Below are positions 790 through 25,714 of a stretch of DNA of 64,000 bases, piece by piece (the first letter of the stretch is position 1; each line of letters begins with the position of its first letter). Origin of the DNA: Arenicola marina (lineage: Eukaryota > Annelida > Polychaeta > Arenicolidae); contig OZ025257.1 in the NCBI GenBank assembly GCA_964019135.1, positions 41,557,798-41,621,797 on the forward strand. Direction: 5' to 3'. A program made the translations under genes and the position numbers. The notes under the pieces are model-generated. The model did not search any database and was not told the origin of the DNA. It worked only from the letters and a program-made list of their open reading frames with translations.

Positions 790-1007
790 CTTTGTGAGGC
801 CTGTGACAGTGTTCTGGTCGAGAGCGGTCTTCTTTTGGTGCGGCTTTCATTGGGTGACGATCAAGGGACAGCGGGCCAGCGCCGCGGAAGCCCCGGTCCT
901 CGCCACCGCGTCACATTCCACCTTCTATGACGCCGTGGCCAATGTGGCCCTCGACTTGACCTCGGTCGTCGCAAAGTCTGAGGCGGAAAACGTGCCTCTG
1001 TTTGGCA
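790..1007 (+). CDS. LPCAT2: LPCAT exon A (PlsC motif I)
   Basis: A long T-tract and ttcttccag precede the exon. It starts with the last base of a split codon and ends one base into the next, before donor gtaggt at 1008. It encodes the start of the acyltransferase domain: FFWCGFHWVTIKG, then AEAP, then the catalytic HSTFYD at 914-931. Joining its last base (a) to the next exon (cg) gives PLFGTLIRFTQPV, which has the same length as the vertebrate segment. Confidence 0.9.
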
Positions 1008-5240: not shown

Positions 5241-8200
5241 GCATGTGGCGTGATGAATTCCAGTGATTAGAGAATCAGACTTTCAGGTCTTCTATATATA
5301 TGATTGCAACGATAATTACAATAGTGAACACACGCGAAAACGTGTGACAAACCGAAAGTTCATAATATGTAGAGATGTATTCATGCTTCTAACCATCGGA
5401 TTAGGAAGCTCGCTGCCAGCTTGGCTCTGGCTGTTGATTCTCACTGTGGTGTGTGGTGTCCCCGCAGCGCTGATCCGGTTCACACAGCCCGTGTTCGTCT
5501 CCAGAGAGGATCCGGACTCCAGACAGAACACCATCCAGGAAATCAAGCGTCGGGCGCAATCTGGAGGGAAATGGCCCCAGATCTTCATCTTCCCGGAGGG
5601 GACGTGCACCAACAGGACCTGTCTCATCTCATTCAAGCCGGGTGGGTAGTTAACACCCAGCCGCCGGTGTTTGGTTCGAATCCCACCCAGGCAAATATCT
5701 ATACTTGTGCAGGATAAATATCCCGTGTCTTTCTTTGCAAAGAGCTGCGGGTGACTCCTTACCAATATGTGACCTACACAGGTTTCTTAAATCAATCAAA
5801 ATATATTTGTTTGGCACAAAAATGCGTATCTGCCAGTCTCAATCAGTTCGGTATGAGTCCATACCCAACATGTCTGGAGGTAGATGCGCGTCGCCTGTGC
5901 GCGTTCCCTGTACGTTACCGAGTCCGTACCTGGAGGTAGATGCGCGTCGCCTGTGCGCGTTTTCTGTACGTTACGGAGTCCGTACCTGGAGGTAGATACG
6001 CGCTGCCTGTTCGCGTTGCCTGTACGTTACGGAGTCCGTACCTGGAGGTAGATGCGCGCTGCCTGTTCGCGTTGCCTGTACGTTACGGAGTCCGTACCTG
6101 GAGGTAGATGCGCGCTGCCTGTTCGCGTTGCCTGTACGTTACCGAGTCCGTACCTGGAGGTAGATGCGCGCTGCCTGTTCGTGTTGCCTGTACGTTACGG
6201 AGTCCGTACCTGGAGGTAGTTGCGCGCTGCCTGTTCGCGTTGCCTGTACGTTACGTAGTCTGTACTTGGAGGTAGATGCGCGTCGCCTGTGCGCGTTGCC
6301 TGTACGTTACCGAGTCCGTACCTGGAGGTAGATGCGCGCTGCCTGTTCGCGTTGCCTGTACGTTACGGAGTCCGTACGTGGAGGTAGATGCGCGCTGCCT
6401 GTTTGCGTTGCCTGTACGTTACGGAGTCCGTACGTGGAGGTAGATGCGCGCTGCCTGTTTGCGTTGCCTGTACGTTACGGAGTCCGTACCTGGAGGTAGA
6501 TGCGCGCTGCCTGTTTGCGTTGCCTGTACGTTACGGAGTCCGTACCTGGAGGTAGATGCGCGCTGCCTGTTCGCGTTGCCTGTACGTTACGGAGTCCGTA
6601 CCTGGAGGTAGATGCGCGCTGCCTGTTCGCGTTGCCTGTACGTTCGCTCTCGGTGTGTGATGTAGTTTTGTCTTCCCCCCCCCCCCCTTCCAGGTGCGTT
6701 CTACCCAGGGGTGCCCGTCCAACCAGTCTGCCTACGCTACACCAACAAAATGGTAAGTAACAGGCCGCTCGGCTAGTTAGCCGTCTGGATGCTTCATGCA
6801 CTGCTGTGAAATTTTCGGCGAAAATAGCTGGAAGACCATTGGGATACTATCTCCAGTCCAAAGTATGGAAACTTCTAATCATGAACCAAGTTATCACATT
6901 GATCATCAGAACTATTGTCTTGTTATAAAAGCTGTTTGAGTTGCAGATTAAATGCAGATTAGTGTGATCTTGTATATATATGATAATAAGTGCTTTATGA
7001 TAATGAGTATCGGTGCGTGCTTACTGATTGGTTGGTCTCTATGTCTTCAGGATACGGTCACGTGGACTTGGGACGGACCCACTGCGTAAGTGCTGCCATC
7101 TGCCGGCCACAGGGCGCCATCGGCACCGGTTGTGCCTAATATTTCAGATCGGCTTGAGTTATAGTGGTGTGGGATTGCAAAAATGAGCCTCTGACATTCA
7201 GTTAGGCACAAGGGAACTGCCAGAGAACCTATGTCGCTATATTCTTGGGATAATACCTTAATGACAATAATCATTGTCACCATATTCTTGGGGTGATACA
7301 TTAAGCGACATCTGCAGCATTTTCACGATATGTTTGTGGGTAAATACATTGCTTTTTGCTTTGAAAAAAACGTGTACATATCTATATTCGGAGTTCATTT
7401 TTACTTGTAACGCGAATTATAACAATGGCTTTGGGTTTACGTGAAATACATATGACCTGTATCTTTTTTTTATAGGTGGCAGGTCATTTGGTTAACCATG
7501 TGTCAGTTCCACAATTATTTGGAGGTGGAGGTAAGTTTATCGTATATAATAATTAAATTAAAGTGAATATAAAATAAAATAAATTTGCACAGCAAAATAG
7601 TGAAAACTGTGGCCCCTATCTTATACCGCCCCTTAGCTTCTCCTGCCCTTATACTAAGCTTACATGCTACCCCAACCAACGTTGTAGACTCCCAATACTC
7701 GCATTGCCAAACGTATGCACATTGAGATGTTTCATTCATAAAGGCTCTTCAGTGAGCTGTTAACTGGGCGTTACAAAAGGTTTGCACAATGTTTACAGTT
7801 GCAAACACTGCCGATTGACGTCTTCGCTTAACGTTAGGAACTGATTCCCGGTTACATCTGTGTGTTTCAGTTCATGCCAGTCTACCACCCGTCTGAGGAA
7901 GAGAAGAACAACCCCAGACTGTTCGCCGAGAACGTCAGAGCCAAGATGGCCGAGTGAGTGATGGCAAGAAACTGATGGAGGCACACTCAGGGAGGGCGGG
8001 GCCCCTGGGGGACCGACGGCCGGGCTCCGTGGGGGTGGGGGGGGGGGAGGTCTGACCACAAGACCCCTATGTTTCCTTCTGTGTTTTGACTACTTGTTTG
8101 GGTCAACTAGGTGTCCTGGGTGCCTTTGACCGACCATAATAACGGTATATTTGACTGTTTGTTTGGGTCACCCAGGTGTCTGGGGGTGCCTGTTACCCAC

Positions 8201-11200
8201 CACAATATCCCTCTATTTGACTGTTTGTTTGGGCCACCCAGGTGGGTGGGGGTGTCTGTCACCGACCACAATAGCCCTATATTTGACTGTTTGGGTCACC
8301 CAGGTGTCTGGGGGTGTCTGTCACCGACCACAATAGCCCTATATTTGACTGTTTGTTTGGGTCACCCAGGTGTCTGGGGGTGTCTGTCACCGACCACAAA
8401 AGCCCTAAATCTAACTGTTTTTTTGGTCACCCAGGTGTCTGGGGGTGTCTGTCACCGACCACAATAGCCCTATATTTGACTGTTTGTTTGGGTCACCCAG
8501 GTGTCTGGGGGTGCCTGTGGCCGACCACAATAGCCCTATATCTGACTGTTTGTTTGGGTCACCCAGGTGTCTGGGGGTGCCAGTGACGGACCACACCTAC
8601 GAGGACTGTCGCCTGATGATGTACGCCGCCAAGCTGAACTTCCCCGCAGCCTCGGGCCTCATAGAGTTCACCAAAGTCGGCAAGAAGCTCGGGTAACTAC
8701 ACGTTTAACCTGCTCTTTGGGCTTGCCCTAAATGAACCGGGTGAGACCTGGGAGATTCACCCGTTACTAACGTTGCTAAACCGATTTTGCATGTTGATTC
8801 AACCATGAATACGAACAGCACCGAATTACTATTATTTTTAACCCATTATGACTTCGCCACAATCGTAATTCAGTCTGTTTATGGATGATGGAAATACAAT
8901 TAATGTGTTTGCAAGGTGATTAGCAAGAAGGATTTTCTGAAGGCGATGCTGTCAATCGCGCAAGGTCACCGTGAACATATGTATTTACCCCCCAAATGTA
9001 TATTACTTCTGTATGTTATGTTACAGCTGTATGTTATATTTTGTATATTACAACACAAAACCATGGACGGTTACTTCTGTATGTTGCCTGTGGTACACTA
9101 TAGGATATGTGCATCGTGGATGTTGTATGTATTGCTGTATCTGCTAATGAAATACAGCTTCAATCCATGCGTATTACTCAAAATGTTTTTGTGTCTATTT
9201 CTTTTTGCACACTTGGCAGTTTAACCAGCATTACATCTCACGCAAGGTTTATTAAACACGCTATATAAACGGTTTGTTACACAGGTTGTATCAACGGTCT
9301 ATTAAACCAGGCTATATGAAGGTAGCTTCAGGCATAATGTGTCATGGCGCCACCCAAGGTCAGGCCATCAACAGAGTATATATATATTAACTTATTTGGC
9401 GTTATTTGTGTTTCAGATTGAACTACGACAACGCCAAGGAGCTGTTGGAGAAGTTCTGTGGGATCGCCCAGCGGCACAAGGGAGGCATCACCGTGGAGGA
9501 ACTGGGGCGACACCTCGAGCTGCCGGTGTCTGACGCTCTGAGGGAGCTCTTCGCCCTCTACGACAGGGTCAGTACCTCCCCTCCTCCCTCCCACACCTGC
9601 CGGTCTCTGACGCTCTGAGGGAGCTCTTCGCCCTCTACGACAGGGTCAGTACCTCCCCTCCTCCCTCCCACACCTGCCGGTGTCTGACGCTCTGAGGGAG
9701 CTCTTCGCCCTCTACGACAGGGTCAGTACCTCCCCTCCACCCTCCCACACCTGCCGGTCTCTGACGCTCTGAGGGAGCTCTTCGCCCTCTACGACAGGGT
9801 CAGTACCTCCCCTCCTCCCTCCCACACCTGCCGGTCTCTGACGCTCTGAGGGAGCTCTTCGCCCTCTACGACAGGGTCAGTACCTCCCCTCCTCCCTCCC
9901 ACACCTGCCGGTGTCTGACGCTCTGAGGGAGCTCTTCGCCCTCTACGACAGGGTCAGTACCTCCCCTCCTCCCTCCCACACCTGCCGGTCTCTGACGCTC
10001 TGAGGGAGCTCTTCGCCCTCTACGACAGGGTCAGTACCTCCCCTCCTCCCTCCCACACCTGCCGGTCTCTGACGCTCTGAGGGAGCTCTTCGCCCTCTAC
10101 GACAGGGTCAGTACCTCCCCTCCACCCTCCCACACCTGCCGGTGTCTGACGCTCTGAGGGAGCTCTTCGCCCTCTACGACAGGGTCAGTACCTCCCCTCC
10201 CCCCCCCCACACCTGCCGGTCTCTGACGCTCTGAGGGAGCTCTTCGCCCTCTACGACAGGGTCAGTACCTCCCCTCCTCCCTCCCACACCTGCCGGTCTC
10301 TGACGCTCTGAGGGAGCTCTTCGCCCTCTACGACAGGGTCAGTACCTCCCCTCCTCCCTCCCACACCTGCCGGTCTCTGACGCTCTGAGGGAGCTCTTCG
10401 CCCTCTACGACAGGGTCAGTACCTCCCCTCCACCCTCCCACACCTGCCGGTCTCTGACGCTCTGAGGGAGCTCTTCGCCCTCTACGACAGGGTCAGTACC
10501 TCCCCTCCACCCTCCCACACCTGCCGGTGTCTGACGCTCTGAGGGAGCTCTTCGCCCTCTACGACAGGGTCAGTACCTCCCCTCCACCCTCCCACACCTG
10601 CCGGTCTCTGACGCTCTGAGGGAGCTCTTCGCCCTCTACGACAGGGTCAGTACCTCCCCTCCTCCCTCCCACACCTGCCGGTCTCTGACGCTCTGAGGGA
10701 GCTCTTCGCCCTCTACGACAGGGTCAGTACCTCCCCTCCTCCCTCCCACACCTGCCGGTGTCTGACGCTCTGAGGGAGCTCTTCGCCCTCTACGACAGGG
10801 TCAGTACCTCCCCTCCTCCCTCCCACACCTGCCGGTCTCTGACGCTCTGAGGGAGCTCTTCGCCCTCTACGACAGGGTCAGTACCTCCCCTCCTCCCTCC
10901 CACACCTGCCGGTGTCTGACGCTCTGAGGGAGCTCTTCGCCCTCTACGACAGGGTCAGTACCTCCCCTCCACCCTCCCACACCTGCCGGTGTCTGACGCT
11001 CTGAGGGAGCTCTTCGCCCTCTACGACAGGGTCAGTACCTCCCCTCCTCCCTCCCACACCTGCCGGTCTCTGACGCTCTGAGGGAGCTCTTCGCCCTCTA
11101 CGACAGGGTCAGTACCTCCCCTCCTCCCTCCCACACCTGCCGGTGTCTGACGCTCTGAGGGAGCTCTTCGCCCTCTACGACAGGGTCAGTACCTCCCCTC

Positions 11201-14200
11201 CTCCCTCCCACACCTGCCGGTCTCTGACGCTCTGAGGGAGCTCTTCGCCCTCTACGACAGGGTCAGTACCTCCCCTCCTCCCTCCCACACCTGCCGGTGT
11301 CTGACGCTCTGAGGGAGCTCTTCGCCCTCTACGACAGGGTCAGTACCTCCCCTCCACCCTCCCACACCTGCCGGTCTCTGACGCTCTGAGGGAGCTCTTC
11401 GCCCTCTACGACAGGGTCAGTACCTCCCCTCCTCCCTCCCACACCTGCCGGTCTCTGACGCTCTGAGGGAGCTCTTCGCCCTCTACGACAGGGTCAGTAC
11501 CTCCCCTCCTCCCTCCCACACCTGCCGGTGTCTGACGCTCTGAGGGAGCTCTTCGCCCTCTACGACAGGGTCAGTACCTCCCCTCCACCCTCCCACACCT
11601 GCCGGTGTCTGACGCTCTGAGGGAGCTCTTCGCCCTCTACGACAGGGTCAGTACCTCCCCTCCTCCCTCCCACACCTGCCGGTGTCTGACGCTCTGAGGG
11701 AGCTCTTCGCCCTCTACGACAGGGTCAGTACCTCCCCTCCACCCTCCCACACCTGCCGGTCTCTGACGCTCTGAGGGAGCTCTTCGCCCTCTACGACAGG
11801 GTCAGTACCTCCCCTCCTCCCTCCCACACCTGCCGGTCTCTGACGCTCTGAGGGAGCTCTTCGCCCTCTACGACAGGGTCAGTACCTCCCCTCCACCCTC
11901 CCACACCTGCCGGTGTCTGACGCTCTGAGGGAGCTCTTCGCCCTCTACGACAGGGTCAGTACCCCCCCTCCTCCCTCCCACACCTGCCGGTCTCTGACGC
12001 TCTGAGGGAGCTCTTCGCCCTCTACGACAGGGTCAGTACCTCCCCTCCTCCCTCCCACACCTGCCGGTCTCTGACGCTCTGAGGGAGCTCTTCGCCCTCT
12101 ACGACAGGGTCAGTACCTCCCCTCCTCCCTCCCACACCTGCCGGTCTCTGACGCTCTGAGGGAGCTCTTCGCCCTCTACGACAGGGTCAGTACCTCCCCT
12201 CCACCCTCCCACACCTGCCGGTCTCTGACGCTCTGAGGGAGCTCTTCGCCCTCTACGACAGGGTCAGTACCTCCCCTCCTCCCTCCCACACCTGCCGGTC
12301 TCTGACGCTCTGAGGGAGCTCTTCGCCCTCTACGACAGGGTCAGTACCTCCCCTCCTCCCTCCCACACCTGCCGGTCTCTGACGCTCTGAGGGAGCTCTT
12401 CGCCCTCTACGACAGGGTCAGTACCTCCCCTCCTCCCTCCCACACCTGCCGGTCTCTGACGCTCTGAGGGAGCTCTTCGCCCTCTACGACAGGGTCAGTA
12501 CCTCCCCTCCACCCTCCCACACCTGCCGGTGTCTGACGCTCTGAGGGAGCTCTTCGCCCTCTACGACAGGGTCAGTACCTCCCCTCCTCCCTCCCACACC
12601 TGCCGGTCTCTGACGCTCTGAGGGAGCTCTTCGCCCTCTACGACAGGGTCAGTACCTCCCCTCCACCCTCCCACACCTGCCGGTCTCTGACGCTCTGAGG
12701 GAGCTCTTCGCCCTCTACGACAGGGTCAGTACCTCCCCTCCACCCTCCCACACCTGCCGGTCTCTGACGCTCTGAGGGAGCTCTTCGCCCTCTACGACAG
12801 GGTCAGTACCTCCCCTCCTCCCTCCCACACCTGCCGGTCTCTGACGCTCTGAGGGAGCTCTTCGCCCTCTACGACAGGGTCAGTACCTCCCCTCCACCCT
12901 CCCACACCTGCCGGTCTCTGACGCTCTGAGGGAGCTCTTCGCCCTCTACGACAGGGTCAGTACCTCCCCTCCTCCCTCCCACACCTGCCGGTCTCTGACG
13001 CTCTGAGGGAGCTCTTCGCCCTCTACGACAGGGTCAGTACCTCCCCTCCTCCCTCCCACACCTGCCGGTCTCTGACGCTCTGAGGGAGCTCTTCGCCCTC
13101 TACGACAGGGTCAGTACCTCCCCTCCTCCCTCCCACACCTGCCGGTCTCTGACGCTCTGAGGGAGCTCTTCGCCCTCTACGACAGGGTCAGTACCTCCCC
13201 TCCTCCCTCCCACACCTGCCGGTCTCTGACGCTCTGAGGGAGCTCTTCGCCCTCTACGACAGGGTCAGTACCTCCCCTCCTCCCTCCCACACCTGCCGGT
13301 CTCTGACGCTCTGAGGGAGCTCTTCGCCCTCTACGACAGGGTCAGTACCTCCCCTCCTCCCTCCCACACCTGCCGGTCTCTGACGCTCTGAGGGAGCTCT
13401 TCGCCCTCTACGACAGGGTCAGTACCTCCCCTCCTCCCTCCCACACCTGCCGGTCTCTGACGCTCTGAGGGAGCTCTTCGCCCTCTACGACAGGGTCAGT
13501 ACCTCCCCTCCTCCCTCCCACACCTGCCGGTCTCTGACGCTCTGAGGGAGCTCTTCGCCCTCTACGACAGGGTCAGTACCTCCCCTCCTCCCTCCCACAC
13601 CTGCCGGTCTCTGACGCTCTGAGGGAGCTCTTCGCCCTCTACGACAGGGTCAGTACCTCCCCTCCTCCCTCCCACACCTGCCGGTCTCTGACGCTCTGAG
13701 GGAGCTCTTCGCCCTCTACGACAGGGTCAGTACCTCCCCTCCACCCTCCCACACCTGCCGGTCTCTGACGCTCTGAGGGAGCTCTTCGCCCTCTACGACA
13801 GGGTCAGTACCTCCCCTCCACCCTCCCACACCTGCCGGTCTCTGACGCTCTGAGGGAGCTCTTCGCCCTCTACGACAGGGTCAGTACCTCCCCTCCTCCC
13901 TCCCACACCTGCCGGTCTCTGACGCTCTGAGGGAGCTCTTCGCCCTCTACGACAGGGTCAGTACCTCCCCTCCACCCTCCCACACCTGCCGGTCTCTGAC
14001 GCTCTGAGGGAGCTCTTCGCCCTCTACGACAGGGTCAGTACCCCCCCTCCTCCCTCCCACACCTGCCGGTGTCTGACGCTCTGAGGGAGCTCTTCGCCCT
14101 CTACGACAGGGTCAGTACCTCCCCTCCTCCCTCCCACACCTGCCGGTCTCTGACGCTCTGAGGGAGCTCTTCGCCCTCTACGACAGGGTCAGTACCTCCC

Positions 14201-17200
14201 CTCCTCCCTCCCACACCTGCCGGTCTCTGACGCTCTGAGGGAGCTCTTCGCCCTCTACGACAGGGTCAGTACCTCCCCTCCACCCTCCCACACCTGCCGG
14301 TCTCTGACGCTCTGAGGGAGCTCTTCGCCCTCTACGACAGGGTCAGTACCCCCCCTCCTCCCTCCCACACCTGCCGGTGTCTGACGCTCTGAGGGAGCTC
14401 TTCGCCCTCTACGACAGGGTCAGTACCTCCCCTCCTCCCTCCCACACCTGCCGGTCTCTGACGCTCTGAGGGAGCTCTTCGCCCTCTACGACAGGGTCAG
14501 TACCCCCCCTCCTCCCTCCCACACCTGCCGGTGTCTGACGCTCTGAGGGAGCTCTTCGCCCTCTACGACAGGGTCAGTACCTCCCCTCCACCCTCCCACA
14601 CCTGCCGGTCTCTGACGCTCTGAGGGAGCTCTTCGCCCTCTACGACAGGGTCAGTACCCCCCTCCTCCCTCCCACACCTGCCGGTGTCTGACGCTCTGAG
14701 GGAGCTCTTCGCCCTCTACGACAGGGTCAGTACCTCCCCTCCTCCCTCCCACACCTGCCGGTCTCTGACGCTCTGAGGGAGCTCTTCGCCCTCTACGACA
14801 GGGTCAGTACCTCCCCTCCTCCCTCCCACACCTGCCGGTCTCTGACGCTCTGAGGGAGCTCTTCGCCCTCTACGACAGGGTCAGTACCTCCCCTCCTCCC
14901 TCCCACACCTGCCGGTCTCTGACGCTCTGAGGGAGCTCTTCGCCCTCTACGACAGGGTCAGTACCTCCCCTCCTCCCTCCCACACCTGCCGGTCTCTGAC
15001 GCTCTGAGGGAGCTCTTCGCCCTCTACGACAGGGTCAGTACCTCCCCTCCACCCTCCCACACCTGCCGGTCTCTGACGCTCTGAGGGAGCTCTTCGCCCT
15101 CTACGACAGGGTCAGTACCTCCCCTCCTCCCTCCCACACCTGCCGGTCTCTGACGCTCTGAGGGAGCTCTTCGCCCTCTACGACAGGGTCAGTACCTCCC
15201 CTCCACCCTCCCACACCTGCCGGTCTCTGACGCTCTGAGGGAGCTCTTCGCCCTCTACGACAGGGTCAGTACCTCCCCTCCTCCCTCCCACACCTGCCGG
15301 TCTCTGACGCTCTGAGGGAGCTCTTCGCCCTCTACGACAGGGTCAGTACCTCCCCTCCACCCTCCCACACCTGCCGGTCTCTGACGCTCTGAGGGAGCTC
15401 TTCGCCCTCTACGACAGGGTCAGTACCTCCCCTCCTCCCTCCCACACCTGCCGGTGTCTGACGCTCTGAGGGAGCTCTTCGCCCTCTACGACAGGGTCAG
15501 TACCTCCCCTCCTCCCTCCCACACCTGCCGGTCTCTGACGCTCTGAGGGAGCTCTTCGCCCTCTACGACAGGGTCAGTACCTCCCCTCCTCCCTCCCACA
15601 CCTGCCGGTCTCTGACGCTCTGAGGGAGCTCTTCGCCCTCTACGACAGGGTCAGTACCTCCCCTCCTCCCTCCCACACCTGCCGGTCTCTGACGCTCTGA
15701 GGGAGCTCTTCGCCCTCTACGACAGGGTCAGTACCTCCCCTCCTCCCTCCCACACCTGCCGGTCTCTGACGCTCTGAGGGAGCTCTTCGCCCTCTACGAC
15801 AGGGTCAGTACCTCCCCTCCTCCCTCCCACACCTGCCGGTCTCTGACGCTCTGAGGGAGCTCTTCGCCCTCTACGACAGGGTCAGTACCTCCCCTCCACC
15901 CTCCCACACCTGCCGGTCTCTGACGCTCTGAGGGAGCTCTTCGCCCTCTACGACAGGGTCAGTACCTCCCCTCCACCCTCCCACACCTGCCGGTCTCTGA
16001 CGCTCTGAGGGAGCTCTTCGCCCTCTACGACAGGGTCAGTACCTCCCCTCCTCCCTCCCACACCTGCCGGTCTCTGACGCTCTGAGGGAGCTCTTCGCCC
16101 TCTACGACAGGGTCAGTACCTCCCCTCCACCCTCCCACACCTGCCGGTCTCTGACGCTCTGAGGGAGCTCTTCGCCCTCTACGACAGGGTCAGTACCTCC
16201 CCCTCCTCCCTCCCACACCTGCCGGTGTCTGACGCTCTGAGGGAGCTCTTCGCCCTCTACGACAGGGTCAGTACCTCCCCTCCTCCCTCCCACACCTGCC
16301 GGTCTCTGACGCTCTGAGGGAGCTCTTCGCCCTCTACGACAGGGTCAGTACCTCCCCTCCTCCCTCCCACACCTGCCGGTCTCTGACGCTCTGAGGGAGC
16401 TCTTCGCCCTCTACGACAGGGTCAGTACCTCCCCTCCACCCTCCCACACCTGCCGGTCTCTGACGCTCTGAGGGAGCTCTTCGCCCTCTACGACAGGGTC
16501 AGTACCTCCCCCTCCTCCCTCCCACACCTGCCGGTGTCTGACGCTCTGAGGGAGCTCTTCGCCCTCTACGACAGGGTCAGTACCTCCCCTCCTCCCTCCC
16601 ACACCTGCCGGTCTCTGACGCTCTGAGGGAGCTCTTCGCCCTCTACGACAGGGTCAGTACCTCCCCTCCTCCCTCCCACACCTGCCGGTCTCTGACGCTC
16701 TGAGGGAGCTCTTCGCCCTCTACGACAGGGTCAGTACCTCCCCTCCTCCCTCCCACACCTGCCGGTGTCTGACGCTCTGAGGGAGCTCTTCGCCCTCTAC
16801 GACAGGGTCAGTACCTCCCCTCCTCCCTCCCACACCTGCCGGTCTCTGACGCTCTGAGGGAGCTCTTCGCCCTCTACGACAGGGTCAGTACCTCCCCTCC
16901 TCCCCTCCCACACCTGCCGGTCTCTGACGCTCTGAGGGAGCTCTTCGCCCTCTACGACAGGGTCAGTACCCCCCCTCCACCCTCCCACACCTGCCGGTCT
17001 CTGACGCTCTGAGGGAGCTCTTCGCCCTCTACGACAGGGTCAGTACCTCCCCTCCTCCCTCCCACACCTGCCGGTCTCTGACGCTCTGAGGGAGCTCTTC
17101 GCCCTCTACGACAGGGTCAGTACCCCCCCTCCACCCTCCCACACCTGCCGGTCTCTGACGCTCTGAGGGAGCTCTTCGCCCTCTACGACAGGGTCAGTAC

Positions 17201-20200
17201 CCCCCCTCCACCCTCCCACACCTGCCGGTCTCTGACGCTCTGAGGGAGCTCTTCGCCCTCTACGACAGGGTCAGTACCTCCCCTCCACCCTCCCACACCT
17301 GCCGGTCTCTGACGCTCTGAGGGAGCTCTTCGCCCTCTACGACAGGGTCAGTACCTCCCCTCCACCCTCCCACACCTGCCGGTGTCTGACGCTCTGAGGG
17401 AGCTCTTCGCCCTCTACGACAGGGTCAGTACCTCCCCTCCTCCCTCCCACACCTGCCGGTCTCTGACGCTCTGAGGGAGCTCTTCGCCCTCTACGACAGG
17501 GTCAGTACCTCCCCTCCTCCCTCCCACACCTGCCGGTGTCTGACGCTCTGAGGGAGCTCTTCGCCCTCTACGACAGGGTCAGTACCTCCCCTCCTCCCTC
17601 CCACACCTGCCGGTGTCTGACGCTCTGAGGGAGCTCTTCGCCCTCTACGACAGGGTCAGTACCTCCCCTCCACCCTCCCACACCTGCCGGTCTCTGACGC
17701 TCTGAGGGAGCTCTTCGCCCTCTACGACAGGGTCAGTACCTCCCCTCCACCCTCCCACACCTGCCGGTCTCTGACGCTCTGAGGGAGCTCTTCGCCCTCT
17801 ACGACAGGGTCAGTACCTCCCCTCCACCCTCCCACACCTGCCGGTGTCTGACGCTCTGAGGGAGCTCTTCGCCCTCTACGACAGGGTCAGTACCTCCCCT
17901 CCTCCCTCCCACACCTGCCGGTGTCTGACGCTCTGAGGGAGCTCTTCGCCCTCTACGACAGGGTCAGTACCTCCCCTCCACCCTCCCACACCTGCCGGTC
18001 TCTGACGCTCTGAGGGAGCTCTTCGCCCTCTACGACAGGGTCAGTACATTCCCTCCACCCTCCCACACCTGCCGGTCTCTGACGCTCTGAGGGAGCTCAT
18101 CGCCCTCTACGACAGGGTCAGTACCTCCCCTCCACCCTCCCACACCTGCCGGTGTCTGACGCTCTGAGGGAGCTCTTCGCCCTCTACGACAGGGTCAGTA
18201 CCTCCCCTCCACCCTCCCACACCTGCCGGTGTCTGACGCTCTGAGGGAGCTCTTCGCCCTCTACGACAGGGTCAGTACCTCCCCTCCACCCTCCCACACC
18301 TGCCGGTCTCTGACGCTCTGAGGGAGCTCATCGCCCTCTACGACAGGGTCAGTACCTCCCCTCCACCCTCCCACACCTGCCGGTCTCTGACGCTCTGAGG
18401 GAGCTCTTCGCCCTCTACGACAGGGTCAGTACCTCCCCTCCACCCTCCCACACCTGCCGGTCTCTGACGCTCTGAGGGAGCTCTTCGCCCTCTACGACAG
18501 GGTCAGTACCTCCCCTCCTCCCTCCCACACCTGCCGGTCTCTGACGCTCTGAGGGAGCTCTTCGCCCTCTACGACAGGGTCAGTACCTCCCCTCCACCCT
18601 CCCACACCTGCCGGTGTCTGACGCTCTGAGGGAGCTCTTCGCCCTCTACGACAGGGTCAGTACCTCCCCTCCACCCTCCCACACCTGCCGGTGTCTGACG
18701 CTCTGAGGGAGCTCTTCGCCCTCTACGACAGGGTCAGTACCTCCCCTCCACCCTCCCACACCTGCCGGTGTCTGACGCTCTGAGGGAGCTCTTCGCCCTC
18801 TACGACAGGGTCAGTACCTCCCCTCCACCCTCCCACACCTGCCGGTCTCTGACGCTCTGAGGGAGCTCTTCGCCCTCTACGACAGGGTCAGTACCTCCCC
18901 TCCTCCCTCCCACACCTGCCGGTGTCTGACGCTCTGAGGGAGCTCTTCGCCCTCTACGACAGGGTCAGTACCTCCCCTCCTCCCTCCCACACCTGCCGGT
19001 GTCTGACGCTCTGAGGGAGCTCTTCGCCCTCTACGACAGGGTCAGTACCTCCCCTCCACCCTCCCACACCTGCCGGTCTCTGACGCTCTGAGGGAGCTCT
19101 TCGCCCTCTACGACAGGGTCAGTACCTCCCCTCCTCCCTCCCACACCTGCCGGTGTCTGACGCTCTGAGGGAGCTCTTCGCCCTCTACGACAGGGTCAGT
19201 ACCTCCCCTCCTCCCTCCCACACCTGCCGGTGTCTGACGCTCTGAGGGAGCTCTTCGCCCTCTACGACAGGGTCAGTACCTCCCCTCCTCCCTCCCACAC
19301 CTGCCGGTGTCTGACGCTCTGAGGGAGCTCTTCGCCCTCTACGACAGGGTCAGTACCTCCCCTCCACCCTCCCACACCTGCCGGTCTCTGACGCTCTGAG
19401 GGAGCTCTTCGCCCTCTACGACAGGGTCAGTACCTCCCCTCCTCCCTCCCACACCTGCCGGTGTCTGACGCTCTGAGGGAGCTCTTCGCCCTCTACGACA
19501 GGGTCAGTACCTCCCCTCCTCCCTCCCACACCTGCCGGTCTCTGACGCTCTGAGGGAGCTCTTCGCCCTCTACGACAGGGTCAGTACCTCCCCTCCTCCC
19601 TCCCACACCTGCCGGTCTCTGACGCTCTGAGGGAGCTCTTCGCCCTCTACGACAGGGTCAGTACCTCCCCTCCACCCTCCCACACCTGCCGGTCTCTGAC
19701 GCTCTGAGGTAGCTCATCGCCCTCTACGACAGGGTCAGTACCTCCCCTCCACCCTCCCACACCTGCCGGTCTCTGACGCTCTGAGGGAGCTCTTCGCCCT
19801 CTACGACAGGGTCAGTACCTCCCCTCCACCCTCCCACACCTGCCGGTCTCTGACGCTCTGAGGGAGCTCTTCGCCCTCTACGACAGGGTCAGTACCTCCC
19901 CTCCACCCTCCCACACCTGCCGGTGTCTGACGCTCTGAGGGAGCTCTTCGCCCTCTACGACAGGGTCAGTACCTCCCCTCCTCCCTCCCACACCTGCCGG
20001 TCTCTGACGCTCTGAGGGAGCTCTTCGCCCTCTACGACAGGGTCAGTACCTCCCCTCCTCCCTCCCACACCTGCCGGTCTCTGACGCTCTGAGGGAGCTC
20101 TTCGCCCTCTACGACAGGGTCAGTACCTCCCCTCCTCCCTCCCACACCTGCCGGTCTCTGACGCTCTGAGGGAGCTCTTCGCCCTCTACGACAGGGTCAG

Positions 20201-23200
20201 TACCCCCCCTCCACCCTCCCACACCTGCCGGTCTCTGACGCTCTGAGGGAGCTCTTCGCCCTCTACGACAGGGTCAGTACCTCCCCTCCACCCTCCCACA
20301 CCTGCCGGTCTCTGACGCTCTGCGGGAGCTCTTCGCCCTCTACGACAGGGTCAGTACCTCCCCTCCACCCTCCCACACCTGCCGGTCTCTGACGCTCTGA
20401 GGGAGCTCTTCGCCCTCTACGACAGGGTCAGTACCTCCCCTCCACCCTCCCACACCTGCCGGTCTCTGACGCTCTGAGGGAGCTCTTCGCCCTCTACGAC
20501 AGGGTCAGTACCTCCCCTCCACCCTCCCACACCTGCCGGTCTCTGACGCTCTGAGGGAGCTCTTCGCCCTCTACGACAGGGTCAGTACCTCCCCTCCTCC
20601 CTCCCACACCTGCCGGTCTCTGACGCTCTGAGGGAGCTCTTCGCCCTCTACGACAGGGTCAGTACCTCCCCTCCACCCTCCCACACCTGCCGGTCTCTGA
20701 CGCTCTGAGGGAGCTCTTCGCCCTCTACGACAGGGTCAGTACCTCCCCTCCACCCTCCCACACCTGCCGGTGTCTGACGCTCTGAGGGAGCTCTTCGCCC
20801 TCTACGACAGGGTCAGTACCTCCCCTCCACCCTCCCACACCTGCCGGTCTCTGACGCTCTGAGGGAGCTCTTCGCCCTCTACGACAGGGTCAGTACCTCC
20901 CCTCCACCCTCCCACACCTGCCGGTGTCTGACGCTCTGAGGGAGCTCTTCGCCCTCTACGACAGGGTCAGTACCCCCCCTCCACCCTCCCACACCTGCCG
21001 GTCTCTGACGCTCTGAGGGAGCTCTTCGCCCTCTACGACAGGGTCAGTACCTCCCCTCCACCCTCCCACACCTGCCGGTGTCTGACGCTCTGAGGGAGCT
21101 CTTCGCCCTCTACGACAGGGTCAGTACCTCCCCTCCACCCTCCCACACCTGCCGGTCTCTGACGCTCTGAGGGAGCTCTTCGCCCTCTACGACAGGGTCA
21201 GTACCTCCCCTCCTCCCTCCCACACCTGCCGGTCTCTGACGCTCTGAGGGAGCTCATCGCCCTCTACGACAGGGTCAGTACCTCCCCTCCTCCCTCCCAC
21301 ACCTGCCGGTCTCTGACGCTCTGAGGGAGCTCTTCGCCCTCTACGACAGGGTCAGTACCTCCCCTCCACCCTCCCACACCTGCCGGTGTCTGACGCTCTG
21401 AGGGAGCTCTTCGCCCTCTACGACAGGGTCAGTACCTCCCCTCCACCCTCCCACACCTGCCGGTCTCTGACGCTCTGAGGGAGCTCTTCGCCCTCTACGA
21501 CAGGGTCAGTACCTCCCCTCCTCCCTCCCACACCTGCCGGTCTCTGACGCTCTGAGGGAGCTCATCGCCCTCTACGACAGGGTCAGTACCTCCCCTCCTC
21601 CCTCCCACACCTGCCGGTCTCTGACGCTCTGAGGGAGCTCTTCGCCCTCTACGACAGGGTCAGTACCTCCCCTCCTCCCTCCCACACCTGCCGGTCTCTG
21701 ACGCTCTGAGGGAGCTCTTCGCCCTCTACGACAGGGTCAGTACCTCCCCTCCACCCTCCCACACCTGCCGGTCTCTGACGCTCTGAGGGAGCTCTTCGCC
21801 CTCTACGACAGGGTCAGTACCTCCCCTCCACCCTCCCACACCTGCCGGTCTCTGACGCTCTGAGGGAGCTCTTCGCCCTCTACGACAGGGTCAGTACCTC
21901 CCCTCCACCCTCCCACACCTGCCGGTCTCTGACGCTCTGAGGGAGCTCTTCGCCCTCTACGACAGGGTCAGTACCTCCCCTCCACCCTCCCACACCTGCC
22001 GGTGTCTGACGCTCTGAGGGAGCTCTTCGCCCTCTACGACAGGGTCAGTACCCCCCCTCCACCCTCCCACACCTGCCGGTCTCTGACGCTCTGAGGGAGC
22101 TCTTCGCCCTCTACGACAGGGTCAGTACCTCCCCTCCACCCTCCCACACCTGCCGGTCTCTGACGCTCTGAGGGAGCTCTTCGCCCTCTACGACAGGGTC
22201 AGTACCTCCCCTCCTCCCTCCCACACCTGCCGGTCTCTGACGCTCTGAGGGAGCTCTTCGCCCTCTACGACAGGGTCAGTACCTCCCCTCCACCCTCCCA
22301 CACCTGCCGGTCTCTGACGCTCTGAGGGAGCTCTTCGCCCTCTACGACAGGGTCAGTACCTCCCCTCCACCCTCCCACACCTGCCGGTCTCTGACGCTCT
22401 GAGGGAGCTCTTCGCCCTCTACGACAGGGTCAGTACCTCCCCTCCTCCCTCCCACACCTGCCGGTCTCTGACGCTCTGAGGGAGCTCTTCGCCCTCTACG
22501 ACAGGGTCAGTACCCCCCCTCCACCCTCCCACACCTGCCGGTCTCTGACGCTCTGAGGGAGCTCTTCGCCCTCTACGACAGGGTCAGTACCTCCCCTCCT
22601 CCCTCCCACACCTGCCGGTCTCTGACGCTCTGAGGGAGCTCTTCGCCCTCTACGACAGGGTCAGTACCTCCCCTCCTCCCTCCCACACCTGCCGGTCTCT
22701 GACGCTCTGAGGGAGCTCTTCGCCCTCTACGACAGGGTCAGTACCTCCCCTCCTCCCTCCCACACCTGCCGGTCTCTGACGCTCTGAGGGAGCTCTTCGC
22801 CCTCTACGACAGGGTCAGTACCTCCCCTCCTCCCTCCCACACCTGCCGGTCTCTGACGCTCTGAGGGAGCTCTTCGCCCTCTACGACAGGGTCAGTACCT
22901 CCCCTCCTCCCTCCCACACCTGCCGGTCTCTGACGCTCTGAGGGAGCTCTTCGCCCTCTACGACAGGGTCAGTACCTCCCCTCCTCCCTCCCACACCTGC
23001 CGGTCTCTGACGCTCTGAGGGAGCTCTTCGCCCTCTACGACAGGGTCAGTACCCCCCCTCCTCCCTCCCACACCTGCCGGTGTCTGACGCTCTGAGGGAG
23101 CTCTTCGCCCTCTACGACAGGGTCAGTACCTCCCCTCCTCCCTCCCACACCTGCCGGTCTCTGACGCTCTGAGGGAGCTCTTCGCCCTCTACGACAGGGT

Positions 23201-25714
23201 CAGTACCTCCCCTCCTCCCTCCCACACCTGCCGGTCTCTGACGCTCTGAGGGAGCTCTTCGCCCTCTACGACAGGGTCAGTACCTCCCCTCCACCCTCCC
23301 ACACCTGCCGGTCTCTGACGCTCTGAGGGAGCTCTTCGCCCTCTACGACAGGGTCAGTACCCCCCCCCCCCCCCCACTCGCAAGAAGTTGAGGAGCTGCT
23401 CTTAGAGACGTGGCTTTTCCCAAAGTTGACCCGCCCTCCTGTGGGTGGGGTCATAACGTCCCTCCTGTGGGTGGGGTCACAACGTCCCTCCTGTGGGTGG
23501 GGTCATAACGTCCCTCCTGTGGGTGGGGTCATAACGTCCCTCCTGTGGGTGGGGTCATAACGTCCCTCCTGTGGGTGGGGTCATAACGTCCCTCCTGTGG
23601 GTGGGGTCATAACGTCCCTCCTGTGGGTGTGGTCATAACGTCCGTCCTGTCGGTGGGGTCATAACGTCCCTCCTGTGGGTGGGGTCATAACGTTGTTGTT
23701 ATGTGTGGCTCCGGAACGATTGACACGTGTTAAATAATAATGTGACTTTCATCAGAGTGGCTCAGGAACGATTGACTTCCGGGAATACGTCATAGGGCTC
23801 CACCTGGTGGCGCATCCTGCAAACACGGAGGAAACCATCAAACTCGCTTTCCAGGTAAAATATAGTAAGACATAGAGATAGATATAATAAACATAAATCT
23901 AAAAGTGCTCACTCTTAAGGCTTAACTCTTAAAGGCCAATTAAAGGCCTAAATCTAAAGGCCTAACTTGTAAAAGTGTTATACAACGTTATATTTTCTTT
24001 TCAAAAGCCTATTTCTTAAAGATCCAACTCTGAATAGGCCCATCTCCTAACCTCTGTGTTGACTAGAACCACCGCCCCCCCCCCCCACCCCACCCATGGA
24101 CAATACTCTGTAAACAGCGGCCGTCGCCTGGTCTCTGCTCTCCCCAGTTGTTTGACAGCGGCGCCAAGGGATACATCACGCAGGTTGAGCTGGTGGAGAT
24201 CCTCGACCAAGCTTTCGCCATGGAAACCGAGGACTCTGAGACACTCTTCGCCCTGGTGGACCAGGACAGGGATGACAAGATAACCTACGGTAGGTACTGA
24301 CTGACACCCAACGTGTCAGAGAGTGGCAGAGAATCTTCTTTCGCCGTTATTATTTTACTTTTCTCGGCAGTTACTTGTTTGATTGATTAGGCCTCCCTGG
24401 TTACATGGTTAGCCCACTAGACCGCATGTCAATAGGTCCCGGGTTCGAAGCCGGGCCCGGGCGCCTAACCTGGGGCATGTTGAATCCATTCAACATTCAT
24501 GGTCCCGATAGTTTCCTTGGCCCAGTTTACCCCTTGTGTGCCCCGAAACCACATAAAATACCAATTTGTTCCATATAATTTCCTGATTAGCCAGGGTCCG
24601 GCCCGATAGCTCAGTGGGCTAGAGCGCTCACCTTGAGTGCTCTGGCCACCTGAGAGCCTAACGGCACGTGGGTCGATGGTTCGCGCCTCGCTGTGGCCAT
24701 GTCTGTGTGGTCGCAGGATAAAGATCCCATGTCTTTCTTCGTAAAGAGTAGGGTGTTACCCCCGGAGACATGGCTTCACTCTCCCTTCCTTCTCCCATTG
24801 ACGCGATATGACCAAAAGTGTAAAGCGTCCTGAATATACAACCCACCAACTTGATTAGCCTGGTCCTGATCGGCTGATCGCTTGGTGTTACATGTGCTTT
24901 CACACTTATTTCACTAACATCACGTACTTTGTACTCGGTTTGTTTGGGCCGAAACTGCCCAAAACGTCCTACATAGCTGGCGTTACAGCGTTGGCGTTGA
25001 CGTTACAGCATTGGCCTCTTTGCTCTTTATGGGATTTGTCACACCCTCCGGACCTAGATCTACCAATTAAAACAATACTTATGCGAAACTGGGAGGGTAT
25101 GGAACAAATCTGGGGATATATTTATTCTTTGATGCCGATGTTGTGCTTGGACAAAAGTCGATATTCTAACTGTGCATTATGCTATAGGTGTAAAAGTCAT
25201 GATCCTTGCCCGTTTTGGGCAGTCGGACGTTTTCGGCTCTCACAAAGGTTCAGCTTCTATATCCAAAGGGACTTTCAAGATATCAAACCCAATATATTAT
25301 GCCATCAAAATATAATATCCCTTAATTTTATTCGGCAGCACAATTAGAAATTTTGTCGCGAAAAGTACGGCTTTGGTCGTTCGAAGTTGGTGCCCGAGTC
25401 TGTAAGAGTTGCGTGACTGAAACATGCCACAACTACCCTGATTGCTTCAATATTTACTCTTCTGTGGGGATATTATGTTCATTTTACGAATGAATTCACT
25501 CAAAAGCTGGTCTTTTAATACGTTTGCAGAAGAGTTCCAGCGCTTCGCCCAGGGCCATCCGGAGTACGCCAAGCTCTTTTGTACCTACCAGGACCTCAAA
25601 TCCAAGGATACTGACGACCGATTTGACCTTCGCAGTCTCCGGGAATGTCCTTCGGATACCAGCATCAACTCCTTGTCGACGGACAGCAACAACGGCAAGG
25701 TCAAGGCCGAGTAG
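790..25714 (+). CDS. LPCAT2: Lysophosphatidylcholine acyltransferase, LPCAT1/2 type, 3' eleven exons (partial, 5' end outside window)
   Basis: Joined exons 790-1007, 5468-5641, 6694-6752, 7051-7085, 7476-7530, 7871-7953, 8567-8692, 9417-9567, 23756-23854, 24148-24289 and 25530-25714 give 441 residues plus TAG with every phase matching. Family knowledge: these ER/lipid-droplet enzymes acylate lyso-PC in phospholipid remodelling, and LPCAT2 also makes PAF. Seen: the HxxxxD motif HSTFYD (residues 42-47 of the fragment), EGTCTNR (116-122), PGVPVQPV just after, and the LPCAT2-like stretch VTDHTYEDCRLM. A canonical EF-hand (299-310), a degenerate one (336-347) and a third acidic loop (371-382) follow. 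The C-terminus KVKAE fits KxKxx ER retrieval. About 100 N-terminal residues, including the membrane anchor, are missing compared with vertebrate proteins. Assignment among LPCAT1, 2 and 4 is not settled; the family call is firm. Confidence 0.93.
1484..1530. repeat. Poly-G/GA-rich tract
   Basis: Two runs of ten or more G flank GGAGAGAGAGGGGAGG. It is one of many long G or C homopolymers in the window and lies in LPCAT intron 1. Confidence 0.8.
1709..2198. repeat. 25-bp minisatellite, ~19 copies
   Basis: The unit is CTAAGCCGAACGGGTAATAG followed by AGTGG, repeated head to tail with single-base variants (CTTAGTC, ACAGG, GGTAGTAG). It lies in LPCAT intron 1. No gene signal is visible on either side up to the sequence gap. 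Confidence 0.95.
2468..2667. other. Assembly gap of 200 N
   Basis: Exactly 200 unknown bases, a conventional placeholder length, so the true size is unknown. Open frames running through it are artefacts. Confidence 1.
2740..3240. repeat. TTTTATCC-type pyrimidine repeat, split by a SINE
   Basis: Loose repeats of TTTTATCCTATACTC occur at 2740-2909 and again at 3134-3240. The two halves are interrupted by the SINE at 2910-3133. Confidence 0.75.
2910..3133 (+). mobile_element. tRNA-derived SINE, family 1, with target duplication
   Basis: The head resembles a tRNA A box (ACAGCTCAGCGGGCTAGAG) with a damaged B box (GGTTCGCGCCCC). The body contains GGATAAAGATCCCATGTC and GACATGGCTCCACTCTCCC and ends in AATATACAACCAA. 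It is flanked by the 10-bp direct repeat CCTCTTTCAT at 2900-2909 and 3134-3143. Related copies lie at 24593-24851 and 30155-30412. Confidence 0.85.
3340..3422 (+). mobile_element. SINE tail fragment
   Basis: GGAGACATGGTTCCTCTCTA and the AACCAACCAACC end resemble the 3' part of the family-1 SINE body. The tRNA-like head is absent. Confidence 0.4.
3480..3595 (+). repeat. ~19-bp tandem array of AG|GTAAG motifs
   Basis: Six copies of a unit of the form NNCCTAGGTAAGCAATACT. Each places an acceptor-like CTAG directly next to a donor-like GTAAG/GTAACC, with junctions after 3486, 3509, 3528, 3547 (TGG variant), 3565 and 3583. It lies in the sense strand of LPCAT intron 1. Confidence 0.8.
4259..4476. 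repeat. ~20-bp minisatellite (TGTTGTCATCTAGCTATGTA)
   Basis: About ten copies with small length changes, in LPCAT intron 1. The remainder of 3600-5190 is AT-rich intron with no exon that I can recognise. Confidence 0.85.
5190..5240. repeat. (TA)n microsatellite
   Basis: About 24 TA dinucleotides in a row. Confidence 0.97.
5468..5641 (+). CDS. LPCAT2: LPCAT exon B (EGTCTNR motif)
   Basis: The acceptor is gtccccgcag (AG at 5466-5467) and the donor is gtgggt at 5642. It encodes FVSREDPDSRQNT, FIFPEGTCTNRTC and LISFKPG. EGTCTNR (5596-5616) is the LPCAT-family phosphate/glycerol-binding motif. A SINE-like fragment starts within a few bases of the donor, so this splice site sits on the edge of a mobile element. 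Confidence 0.94.
5642..5800 (+). mobile_element. SINE-like fragment abutting the exon B donor
   Basis: It contains a tRNA B-box-like GGTTCGAATCCCACCC (near 5673) and then GGATAAATATCCCGTGTC, TTTCTTTGCAAAGAGC and GGGTGACTCC, the diagnostic body of the family-1 SINEs. The A-box part is short or lost. The element starts at or within a few bases of the splice donor at 5642. Confidence 0.65.
5872..6645. repeat. 56-bp minisatellite, ~14 copies
   Basis: The unit starts CCTGGAGGTAGATGCGCGCT, continues GCCTGTTCGCGTTGCC and ends TGTACGTTACGGAGTCCGTA. Each copy contains the near-palindrome TACGGAGTCCGTA. It fills most of LPCAT intron 2 and ends about 50 bp before the exon C acceptor. I find no exon-derived sequence in the unit. 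Confidence 0.95.
6694..6752 (+). CDS. LPCAT2: LPCAT exon C
   Basis: A C-rich tract and ttccag precede it, and a strong donor gtaagt follows at 6753. It encodes AFYPGVPVQPVCLRYTNKM, the PGVPVQPV block of the acyltransferase fold. It joins exon B by a split glycine codon (g+gt) and ends in phase 0. Confidence 0.93.
7051..7085 (+). CDS. LPCAT2: LPCAT exon D (35-nt small exon)
   Basis: The acceptor is gtcttcag and the donor is gtaagt at 7086. It encodes DTVTWTWDGPT plus two bases. DTVTWTW is highly conserved in the LPCAT family. The two phases connect exons C and E without a frame change, which makes this short exon secure. Confidence 0.92.
7476..7530 (+). CDS. LPCAT2: LPCAT exon E
   Basis: The acceptor is tttttttatag and the donor gtaagt at 7531. 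It encodes WQVIWLTMCQFHNYLEVE, matching in length and end sequence the family segment between the TWTW block and EFMPV. It starts with one base completing an alanine codon and ends in phase 0. Confidence 0.91.
7871..7953 (+). CDS. LPCAT2: LPCAT exon F
   Basis: The acceptor is gtgtttcag and the donor gtgagt at 7954. It encodes FMPVYHPSEEEKNNPRLF and then AENVRAKMAE, the end of the acyltransferase domain. It ends two bases into a glutamate codon, which is completed by the first base of exon G at 8567. Confidence 0.93.
7975..8052. repeat. G-rich tract with poly-G run
   Basis: GGGAGGGCGGGGCCCCTGGGGG leads into GGGGGTGGGG and a run of ten or more G. It is intronic, just after the exon F donor, and could fold into G-quadruplexes. 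Confidence 0.7.
8103..8566 (+). repeat. LPCAT2: 66-bp tandem array of a splice acceptor plus exon start
   Basis: Seven upstream copies of GGGTCACCCAG|GTGTCTGGG and the following GGTGCCTGTCACCGACCACA, each with intronic ATAGCCCTATATTTGACTG between. Candidate AG sites end at 8110, 8175, 8241, 8303, 8369, 8434, 8500 and (real) 8566. The part after each AG resembles the first roughly 27 bases of exon G. Confidence 0.93.
8567..8692 (+). CDS. LPCAT2: LPCAT exon G
   Basis: The acceptor is cacccag (AG 8565-8566) and the donor gtaact at 8693. It encodes CLGVPVTDHTYEDC, RLMMYAAKLNFP and IEFTKVGKKLG. The acceptor and about the first 27 bases of this exon are copied seven more times, imperfectly, in the 460 bp upstream. 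The last copy is chosen as the real start because only here does the conserved LGVPVTDHTYEDCRLM continue. Use of either of the two nearest upstream copies would stay in frame. Confidence 0.92.
9417..9567 (+). CDS. LPCAT2: LPCAT exon H (leads into EF-hand 1)
   Basis: The acceptor is gtgtttcag and the donor gtcagt at 9568. It encodes LNYDNAKELLEKFCGIAQ, GGITVEELGRHLELPVSD and ALRELFALYDR. The final Asp-Arg are residues 1-2 of EF-hand loop 1. The last roughly 48 bases and the donor are the seed of the giant 77-bp tandem array that follows at once. Only the first donor keeps the EF-hand frame: reading into the array stops at TGA 9616-9618. Confidence 0.93.
9568..23363 (+). repeat. LPCAT2: Giant 77-bp array (~179 copies) of exon H 3' end plus splice donor
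   Basis: Each unit has a 29-bp intronic part (GTCAGTACCTCCCCTCCTCC then CTCCCACAC) and a 48-bp part nearly identical to the end of exon H (CTGCCGGTGTCTGACGCTCT, GAGGGAGCTCTTCGCCCTCT, ACGACAGG). Every copy therefore recreates the exon end and the donor AGG|GTCAGT. Main variants are CTCC/CACC, GTGTCTG/GTCTCTG, ACCTCC/ACCCCC and rare CTCATC. The 77-bp period was measured from successive GTCAGT positions (9568, 9645). Confidence 0.97.
23425..23695. repeat. 27-bp minisatellite, ~10 copies
   Basis: The unit is GTCATAACGTCCCTCCTGTG plus GGTGGGG. It follows a poly-C run at 23361-23376 that ends the 77-bp array. It lies in the 3' part of the 14.2-kb LPCAT intron. Confidence 0.93.
23703..23725 (+). 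repeat. LPCAT2: Decoy copy of exon I start
   Basis: GTGGCTCCGGAACGATTGAC here matches GTGGCTCAGGAACGATTGAC at the start of exon I (23757-23776) with one mismatch. It lies 53 bp upstream and lacks a good acceptor. Confidence 0.8.
23756..23854 (+). CDS. LPCAT2: LPCAT exon I (EF-hand loop 1)
   Basis: The acceptor is ctttcatcag and the donor gtaaaa at 23855. It has 33 whole codons in phase 0: SGSGTIDFREYVIGL, then HLVAHPANTEETIKLAFQ. With DR from exon H it completes the canonical loop DRSGSGTIDFRE (ligands D1, S3, S5, D9, E12). It is separated from exon H by a 14.2-kb intron. A decoy copy of its first roughly 20 bases lies at 23704-23724. Confidence 0.92.
24148..24289 (+). CDS. LPCAT2: LPCAT exon J (EF-hand 2 and most of loop 3)
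   Basis: The acceptor is tctccccag and the donor gtaggt at 24290. It encodes LFDSGAKGYITQVELVEIL and then ETEDSETLFALVDQDRDDK. The second loop (DSGAKGYITQVE) lacks acidic residues at positions 3 and 5 and probably binds calcium weakly. The third loop (DQDRDDKITY, finished by EE in exon K) is strongly acidic, with Asp in place of the usual Gly at position 6. Confidence 0.92.
24390..24560 (+). mobile_element. tRNA-derived SINE, family 2
   Basis: The head has CCTCCCTGGTTACATGGTTA and B box GGGTTCGAAGCC. The body contains GGGGCATGTTGAATCCATTC and CCCAGTTTACCCC. Related copies are at 38785-38945 and 42505-42680. It lies in the last LPCAT intron. Confidence 0.65.
24593..24851 (+). mobile_element. 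tRNA-derived SINE, family 1, with target duplication
   Basis: It has an A-box-like TAGCTCAGTGGGCTAGAGCG, a B-box-like GGTTCGCGCC and the family body (GGATAAAGATCCCATGTC, GACATGGCTTCACTCTCCC), and it ends AATATACAACCCACC. The 9-bp repeat TGATTAGCC occurs at 24584-24592 and 24852-24860. It is intronic in LPCAT, sense strand. Confidence 0.85.
24950..25252 (+). mobile_element. Short copy of an inverted-repeat DNA element
   Basis: It begins CCGAAACTGCCCAAAACGTC and ends CCGTTTTGGGCAGTCGGACG, TTTTCGGCTCTCAC, so its ends are inverted versions of GCCCAAAACG. About 250 bp match the reverse complement of 59300-59551. Its first 22 bases also match the reverse complement of 60647-60668. It looks like an internally deleted relative of the element at 59300-60670. 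Confidence 0.65.
25530..25714 (+). CDS. LPCAT2: LPCAT terminal coding exon K
   Basis: The acceptor is cgtttgcag and the stop TAG is 25712-25714. It encodes EEFQRFAQGHPEYAKLF, CTYQDLKSKDTDDRFDL and a polar tail ending NNGKVKAE. The HPEYAKLF block is diagnostic for LPCAT1/2. The last five residues fit a KxKxx ER-retrieval signal, as expected for an ER-resident type II membrane enzyme. Confidence 0.93.

Follow-up and report, generated by a model that had tools for sequence, protein, structure and literature searches.

Minisatellite-like tandem duplications of exon-intron boundaries have been described in lancelet globin genes, where they were called mirages after the Adh3 case and where further mirage loci beyond the globins are cited (PMC3087553). 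In the BflGb6 gene, two haplotypes carry 3 and 6 units (PMC3087553). Troponin C and PGBD5 (imperfect) have been added as lancelet mirages (PMC3902484) and, in the portions of these accounts considered here, such arrays are reported not to disturb splicing (PMC3087553, PMC3902484). In the earthworm, an annelid, duplicated exon-4 copies of metallothionein are described, in the part of the report drawn on here, as being absent from the transcript (PMC12783039). The locus considered here lies in a window, namely the whole 64-kb stretch of Arenicola marina DNA that was analyzed (C10:41557798-41621797), within a genome of 867,369,267 bases in 762 contigs. COX1 from the 15,942-bp contig C762, translated with code 5, showed 91% identity to Pilargis wolfi and then 87-90% to other annelids, most of them phyllodocids, among the 120 best of 7999 scored candidates, and on this comparison the genome was placed in a phyllodocid annelid near Pilargidae. 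A lancelet origin, initially considered since mirages are known from lancelets, was rejected on account of this COX1 match and of the lower LPCAT identities of Branchiostoma (see below). Judged from the DNA, the array found at this locus belongs to the known mirage kind, with host and scale being new.

The array lies in an LPCAT2-like gene of eleven exons on the plus strand, extending from 790-1007 to 25530-25714 in one open frame and with GT-AG ends. Those features of the gene used in the following (a slash marks a splice junction) are:

790..1007, plus strand: exon joining in frame to 5468-5641; an acceptor at 799 is also open.
5468-5641, 6694-6752, 7051-7085, 7476-7530 and 7871-7953, plus strand: exons with an open joined frame and GT-AG at each junction; Acyltransferase PF01553.
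8567..8692, plus strand: exon with an open frame, the start of which is the exonic part of a 66-bp unit.
9417..9567, plus strand: exon, the last 48 bp of which are the exonic part of a 77-bp unit; cag/ATTGAACTACG ... CGACAGG/gtcagt, frame open.
23756..23854, plus strand: exon completing the first EF-hand loop (SGSGTIDFREYV...); tcatcag/AGTGGCTC ... TTTCCAG/gtaaaa; Pfam EF-hand.
24148-24289 and 25530-25714 (stop codon included), plus strand: last exons, joined frame open.

The host gene is otherwise intact, with a single open frame and GT-AG at every junction, and its predicted product matches Acyltransferase PF01553 and then EF-hand models in Pfam. In protein searches, 1698 proteins were matched at E<=1e-40. 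Among the best 120 of these that were listed, the top named matches are of the LPCAT type, the best by E-value is from Paralvinella palmiformis (65%) and the highest identity is 69%, with annelids, molluscs and nemerteans reaching up to 65% and Branchiostoma 60% or less; no near-identical transcript protein was found among those 120. The gene is predicted to encode an LPCAT2-type lysophospholipid acyltransferase, with EF-hands downstream of an acyltransferase domain. Joining exon 9417-9567 to exon 23756-23854 keeps the reading frame and gives ...LFALYDR/SGSGTIDFREYV, such that the junction falls after the second residue of the first EF-hand loop and before the third, in agreement with the position after Asp-Arg assigned to it in the initial annotation.

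At this junction, the following were identified:

9520-23377, plus strand: donor-side array; TRF reports a period of 77, 180.0 copies and 98% matches.
9568..9573, plus strand: donor 1, GTCAGT, the sole donor giving the full-length protein among 180, all 180 choices having been read.
9568..23755, plus strand: intron from donor 1, 14,188 bp; 403 bp if spliced from the last donor (23353).

Cutting the array at unit starts gave 180 units, unit 1 being the real exon end, a copy number that is that of one assembly. Each 77-bp unit comprises 48 bp of exon end (9520-9567) and 29 bp of intron start carrying the donor, and successive units are spaced by 77 bp in 175 of 179 instances, by 78 bp in three and by 76 bp in one. 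The donor CGACAGG/GTCAGT is kept in 180/180 units, with the donor GT first seen at 9568 and last at 23353. Likewise, CGACAGGGTCAGT is intact in 180/180 units, and AGGGTCAGT did not occur outside the array when the plus strand of the 64-kb window was searched. Eighteen distinct unit sequences were recognized, the four commonest of which (68, 45, 23 and 19 copies) account for 155 of the 180 and differ from each other at two sites only. A comparison of the 175 full-length units reveals nine variable positions, of which four are exonic and five intronic; none falls in the donor. The 48-bp exonic part codes for LPVSDALRELFALYDR and aligns with nine relatives. Because the peptide of exon 9417-9567 can be aligned to nine proteins of the LPCAT type, of which eight come from named animals, the exon is the source of the unit rather than its product. 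In this manner, the earlier description of some 179 copies in 13.8 kb, each made of 48 bp of the 3' end of the exon (there termed exon H) and 29 bp of intron and each recreating a candidate 5' splice site, was borne out, and the alignment of unit with exon, on which that description had been staked beforehand, was obtained.

Given that accurate long reads are about as long as this 13.9-kb array of 98% identical units, one may ask whether a real array of few copies was inflated in assembly. Yet, the different unit types are intermingled along the array, with no copied blocks, and no higher-order structure is evident; the longest word of unit types to occur more than once has a length of 9, which was also reached in 9 of 500 shuffles; unit types matched at lags of 4 and 27 with a frequency of 0.33, as compared to 0.24 expected. 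Moreover, the array sits in a contig of 43 Mb, and similar arrays of lower copy number exist at other loci. Such inflation is accordingly considered very unlikely.

The consequences of using each donor were next read from the DNA. Apart from the few odd-length units, donor k adds 77(k-1) nt. With all 180 donor choices having been read, only donor 1 gives the full-length protein; each of donors 2-180 (179/179) leads to one stop, 16 foreign codons past ...LYDR. As such, the proposal that a correct mRNA needs the first donor held. All decoys yield the same product because the unit contains one stop in the frame entered.

These outcomes bear on two other explanations. In the first, the array would serve as a set of regulatory decoys, with later donors being used in some tissues to give a Ca2+-insensitive, truncated LPCAT2 or an mRNA bound for decay, such that array length would tune enzyme levels. 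The single product of 179/179 decoys, ending 16 residues past DR with the acyltransferase domain kept and the EF-hand loops lost, is what such a switch would make. However, this sameness follows from the single stop in the entered frame, and the presence of like arrays in unrelated chaperonin and myosin exons (see below) points to a general process rather than to a gene-specific switch. A regulatory role is, therefore, judged to be unlikely, although somewhat less so than inflation in assembly. In the second, the copies would be kept in the protein or removed stepwise, one copy at a time, for which it speaks that every unit offers a pyrimidine-rich stretch, an AG and a donor. Inclusion of copies in the full-length protein was excluded, since inclusion always gives a stop, while recursive splicing of the 77-bp units was rejected, with AG/GT not being in the right register: an additional G separates the AG from the GT of the donor, such that one extra G would be left per step. 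It is thus scarcely credible that the array is of either type.

The strength of the donors was also considered. Pairing of the U1 end with the array donor was calculated at -7.3 kcal/mol, as compared to a range of -6.5 to -12.3 kcal/mol over nine donors of the gene. As the array donor is no weaker than the other donors of the gene, the decoys should bind U1. Moreover, since the donors are alike and their U1 pairing is ordinary, local sequence cannot single out donor 1, leaving only its place beside the exon body. Eperon and colleagues reportedly found that, with U1 bound to each of two equal donors, splicing tends to use the intron-proximal one. Such a rule would favor donor 180, with its 403-bp intron, in which case the gene would not yield the full-length enzyme; that its frame is intact argues against donor 180 being taken.

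A second array, on which the initial annotation was silent, was detected on the acceptor side of another exon of the same gene:

8085..8595, plus strand: acceptor-side array; TRF reports 66 bp x 7.8, the unit consisting of intron end, CACCCAG and first exon bases.

This array spans the acceptor of exon 8567-8692, and the exon together with its flank gave eight blastn matches. When ten LPCAT exons with flanks were tested, further copies in the window were found for only two, namely 8567-8692 and 9417-9567. Eight acceptors are present in the 66-bp array, with first exon bases from 8111 to 8567. The last three, including the true one, keep the frame open, while each of the first five runs into a stop. 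Splicing to the last-but-one or last-but-two acceptor would lengthen the protein in frame by 22 or 44 residues, such that isoforms with extra residues are possible.

Boundary arrays were also sought elsewhere in the genome, in a survey of 71 exons (39 chaperonin, 21 myosin and 11 LPCAT) in which exon edges were taken as the edges of profile matches and arrays were called at 2.5 copies or more. The chaperonin exons were drawn from the 30 best loci, which gave 49 matches; the 39 for which both edges were covered were kept, and the other 10, lacking flanks, were left out. The myosin exons are 21 of 77 matches in four stretches, with the other 56 being left out; these stretches were hand-picked, two for exon density and two partly for long open frames beside exons, which may have introduced bias. 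Thirty kinase loci were left out, as many were single-exon families or lay on small contigs with stops. Arrays cross 13 of the 71 exons, 10 at donors and 3 at acceptors, while none covers or lies inside any of the 71. For the 11 of these 13 arrays outside the window, the splice sites were read in the DNA. The arrays are:

C8:22399647: chaperonin donor array, 29 bp x 40.1.
C8:22405017: chaperonin donor array, 41 bp x at least 38.0 (runs past the locus end).
C17:26059139: chaperonin donor array, 66 bp x at least 5.6 (runs past the locus end).
C17:26070828: chaperonin donor array, 82 bp x 6.6.
C11:24863492: chaperonin donor array, 55 bp x 10.9.
C17:26069214: chaperonin acceptor array, 68 bp x 6.9.
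C17:26069812: chaperonin acceptor array, 34 bp x 4.9.
C7:32813243: myosin donor array, 32 bp x 11.7.
C7:32814139: myosin donor array, 37 bp x 6.6.
C4:2728577: myosin donor array, 28 bp x 83.1.
C20:12503597: myosin donor array, 81 bp x 2.5.
LPCAT, in the window: one donor array (77 bp x 180.0) and one acceptor array (66 bp x 7.8).

The 180 copies of the LPCAT donor array represent the highest count among the 13. In three of the 13 (C8:22405017, C17:26069812 and C4:2728577), exonic sequence accounts for only about 4-5 bp. Among the pattern-matched donors of each of the five chaperonin donor arrays, only the first is open and in frame (1 of 30, 14, 6, 4 and 8), with one pattern falling one base early and stops still excluding the later donors. 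Exon definition predicts use of the copy adjoining the exon body, and this copy holds the productive site in all six donor arrays that were tested. The myosin intron at C4:2728795-2731110 opens with 83 copies of the 28-bp unit, in which CACAG is directly followed by GTCAGT, so that each copy contains AG/GT, as in zero-length recursive splice sites; this unit is without a notable polypyrimidine tract.

Several observations were made at kinase loci. On small contigs (C443, C465, C504, C330, C652, C232 and others), kinase frames are broken by TAG and TAA but not by TGA, as if they came from a guest organism reading TAA and TAG as sense, in what would be a ciliate-type code. Contig C3 contains, at about 14-57 Mb, dozens of intronless kinase-like frames of about 280-320 aa, a large local family, while C5:5402476-5437356 holds five kinase loci of equal score about 8.5 kb apart, a tandem gene array.

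To control for array density, the arrays were rotated at random within each stretch in 5000 shifts. Tandem arrays make up 25% of the survey DNA, and in the window, 31 merged tandem arrays (period of 10 or more, 2.5 copies or more) make up 44% of the 64 kb. The window also includes a 27-bp unit repeated about 207 times at 45529-51243 (5.7 kb, 86% matches) without a known exon beside it, an open frame with a Fibrinogen_C domain at 61914-62642, and a 557-aa open frame at 39453-41123 giving no Pfam match at E<=0.001. Random shifts predicted 4.15 donor crossings, 4.15 acceptor crossings and 13.2 arrays covering or inside an exon, as compared to the 10, 3 and 0 observed. Hence, arrays are dense, exons are protected, acceptors are crossed at about the level of chance and donors are crossed more often. 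The donor excess, in a test chosen after the pattern had been noticed, gave P=0.006 (n=71), or 0.011 without LPCAT, while in none of the 5000 shifts was exon overlap as low as the 0 observed. The excess of all boundary crossings (13 vs. 8.3 expected) is marginal (P=0.06); without LPCAT, 11 of 60 exons are crossed (P=0.11 overall). Two more boundary duplications, of 2.0 copies, fall outside the 13; adding them gives 15/71, with P=0.02 overall and 0.003 for donors.

The donor excess (10 donor vs. 3 acceptor arrays, with 4.15 expected at donors) could mean that the sequence of the exon 3' end, such as G-rich DNA by donors, starts arrays, in which case the excess would be mutational and not due to tolerance alone. 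The G4Hunter maximum is indeed at least 1.5 in 16 of 56 arrays, as compared to 11 of 88 non-array stretches. However, the median G4Hunter value is 0.76 in both arrays and background, and several boundary arrays (C17:26059139 and C4:2728577) are not G-rich. Seeding of this sort is, accordingly, rather unlikely, while still deserving of consideration.

Intact donors, one productive donor of 180, a twin array on the acceptor side and recurrence on many exons support the array being a mirage. It is probable that this minisatellite across an exon-intron boundary grew because splicing tolerates donor-side copies, with the nearest donor being used. A tandem duplication across the donor would have altered neither exon 9417-9567 nor the donor belonging to it and, for this reason, would have been nearly neutral. 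Unequal exchange or replication slippage may then have generated the 180 near-identical copies. By exon definition, the spliceosome would match the acceptor at 9416 to the donor closest to it, giving an exon of 151 nt, rather than of 228, 305 or more nt from later donors, and the other 179 copies would be removed within the 14.2-kb intron. If each acceptor is paired with the nearest downstream donor, then a duplication across a donor would be harmless and the array could drift to great length. The best reading is that minisatellites expand wherever splicing tolerates them. More tentatively, and with the balance tipped slightly against it, it can be suggested that this annelid lineage lets minisatellites grow across the donors of a large proportion of exons, those of housekeeping genes included, and that the spliceosome routinely picks out the single productive donor from tens to 180 identical copies. 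If true, a far stricter exon-definition rule than that assumed for competing equal 5' splice sites would be needed, and the species would offer a natural test bed for strict exon definition. Because the 180 donors are identical in their local sequence and lie progressively farther from the acceptor of the exon, only distance and position vary, and junction counts from RNA would directly pit exon definition against intron-proximal choice in a living animal. Moreover, if arrays occur on about one exon in six, as sampled, then gene prediction, short-read assembly and annotation would be misled in such worms.

Comparison with described systems places the array as follows. As in potato RdRp (PMC4974935), tandem duplication creates extra splice-site copies, there of an AGGT-containing exon sequence; in that gene, however, in the part of the account considered, one duplication generated a new intron within an exon, whereas in the worm, an existing intron was extended by the array. 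Like the worm gene, the earthworm metallothionein genes are annelid and carry long minisatellite arrays, in intron 1 (PMC12783039), although these are intronic, and the portion of that report drawn on here makes no mention of their spanning a splice site. The claim of the initial annotation that so many exact donor duplicates are novel stands for their number but not for their kind, since lancelet mirages have been described and boundary arrays are common in this genome; the literature search returned no account of boundary arrays in annelids nor of about 180 donor copies. As in the lancelet mirages (Adh3, the globins BflGb6 and BflGb9, troponin C and PGBD5), tandem units span the boundary and carry the splice site (PMC3087553, PMC3902484), the worm units being of minisatellite size (77 bp x 180.0, 98%) and each containing exon end, splice site and intron. 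Common to both, so far as the lancelet passages go, are donor- and acceptor-side forms, a host gene that reads intact and boundary copies that are otherwise homogenized. The worm array differs in its annelid host, in its 180 copies as compared to the 3 and 6 units of BflGb6, and in its 77-bp unit, the units of Adh3 measuring 10-72 bp and those of the globins 150-160 bp. Likewise, 13 of 71 sampled exons in the worm bear a boundary array, a frequency for which the lancelet passages give no counterpart. In the worm, too, boundary arrays may supply material from which introns grow or are gained, in line with what has been proposed for the lancelet globins.
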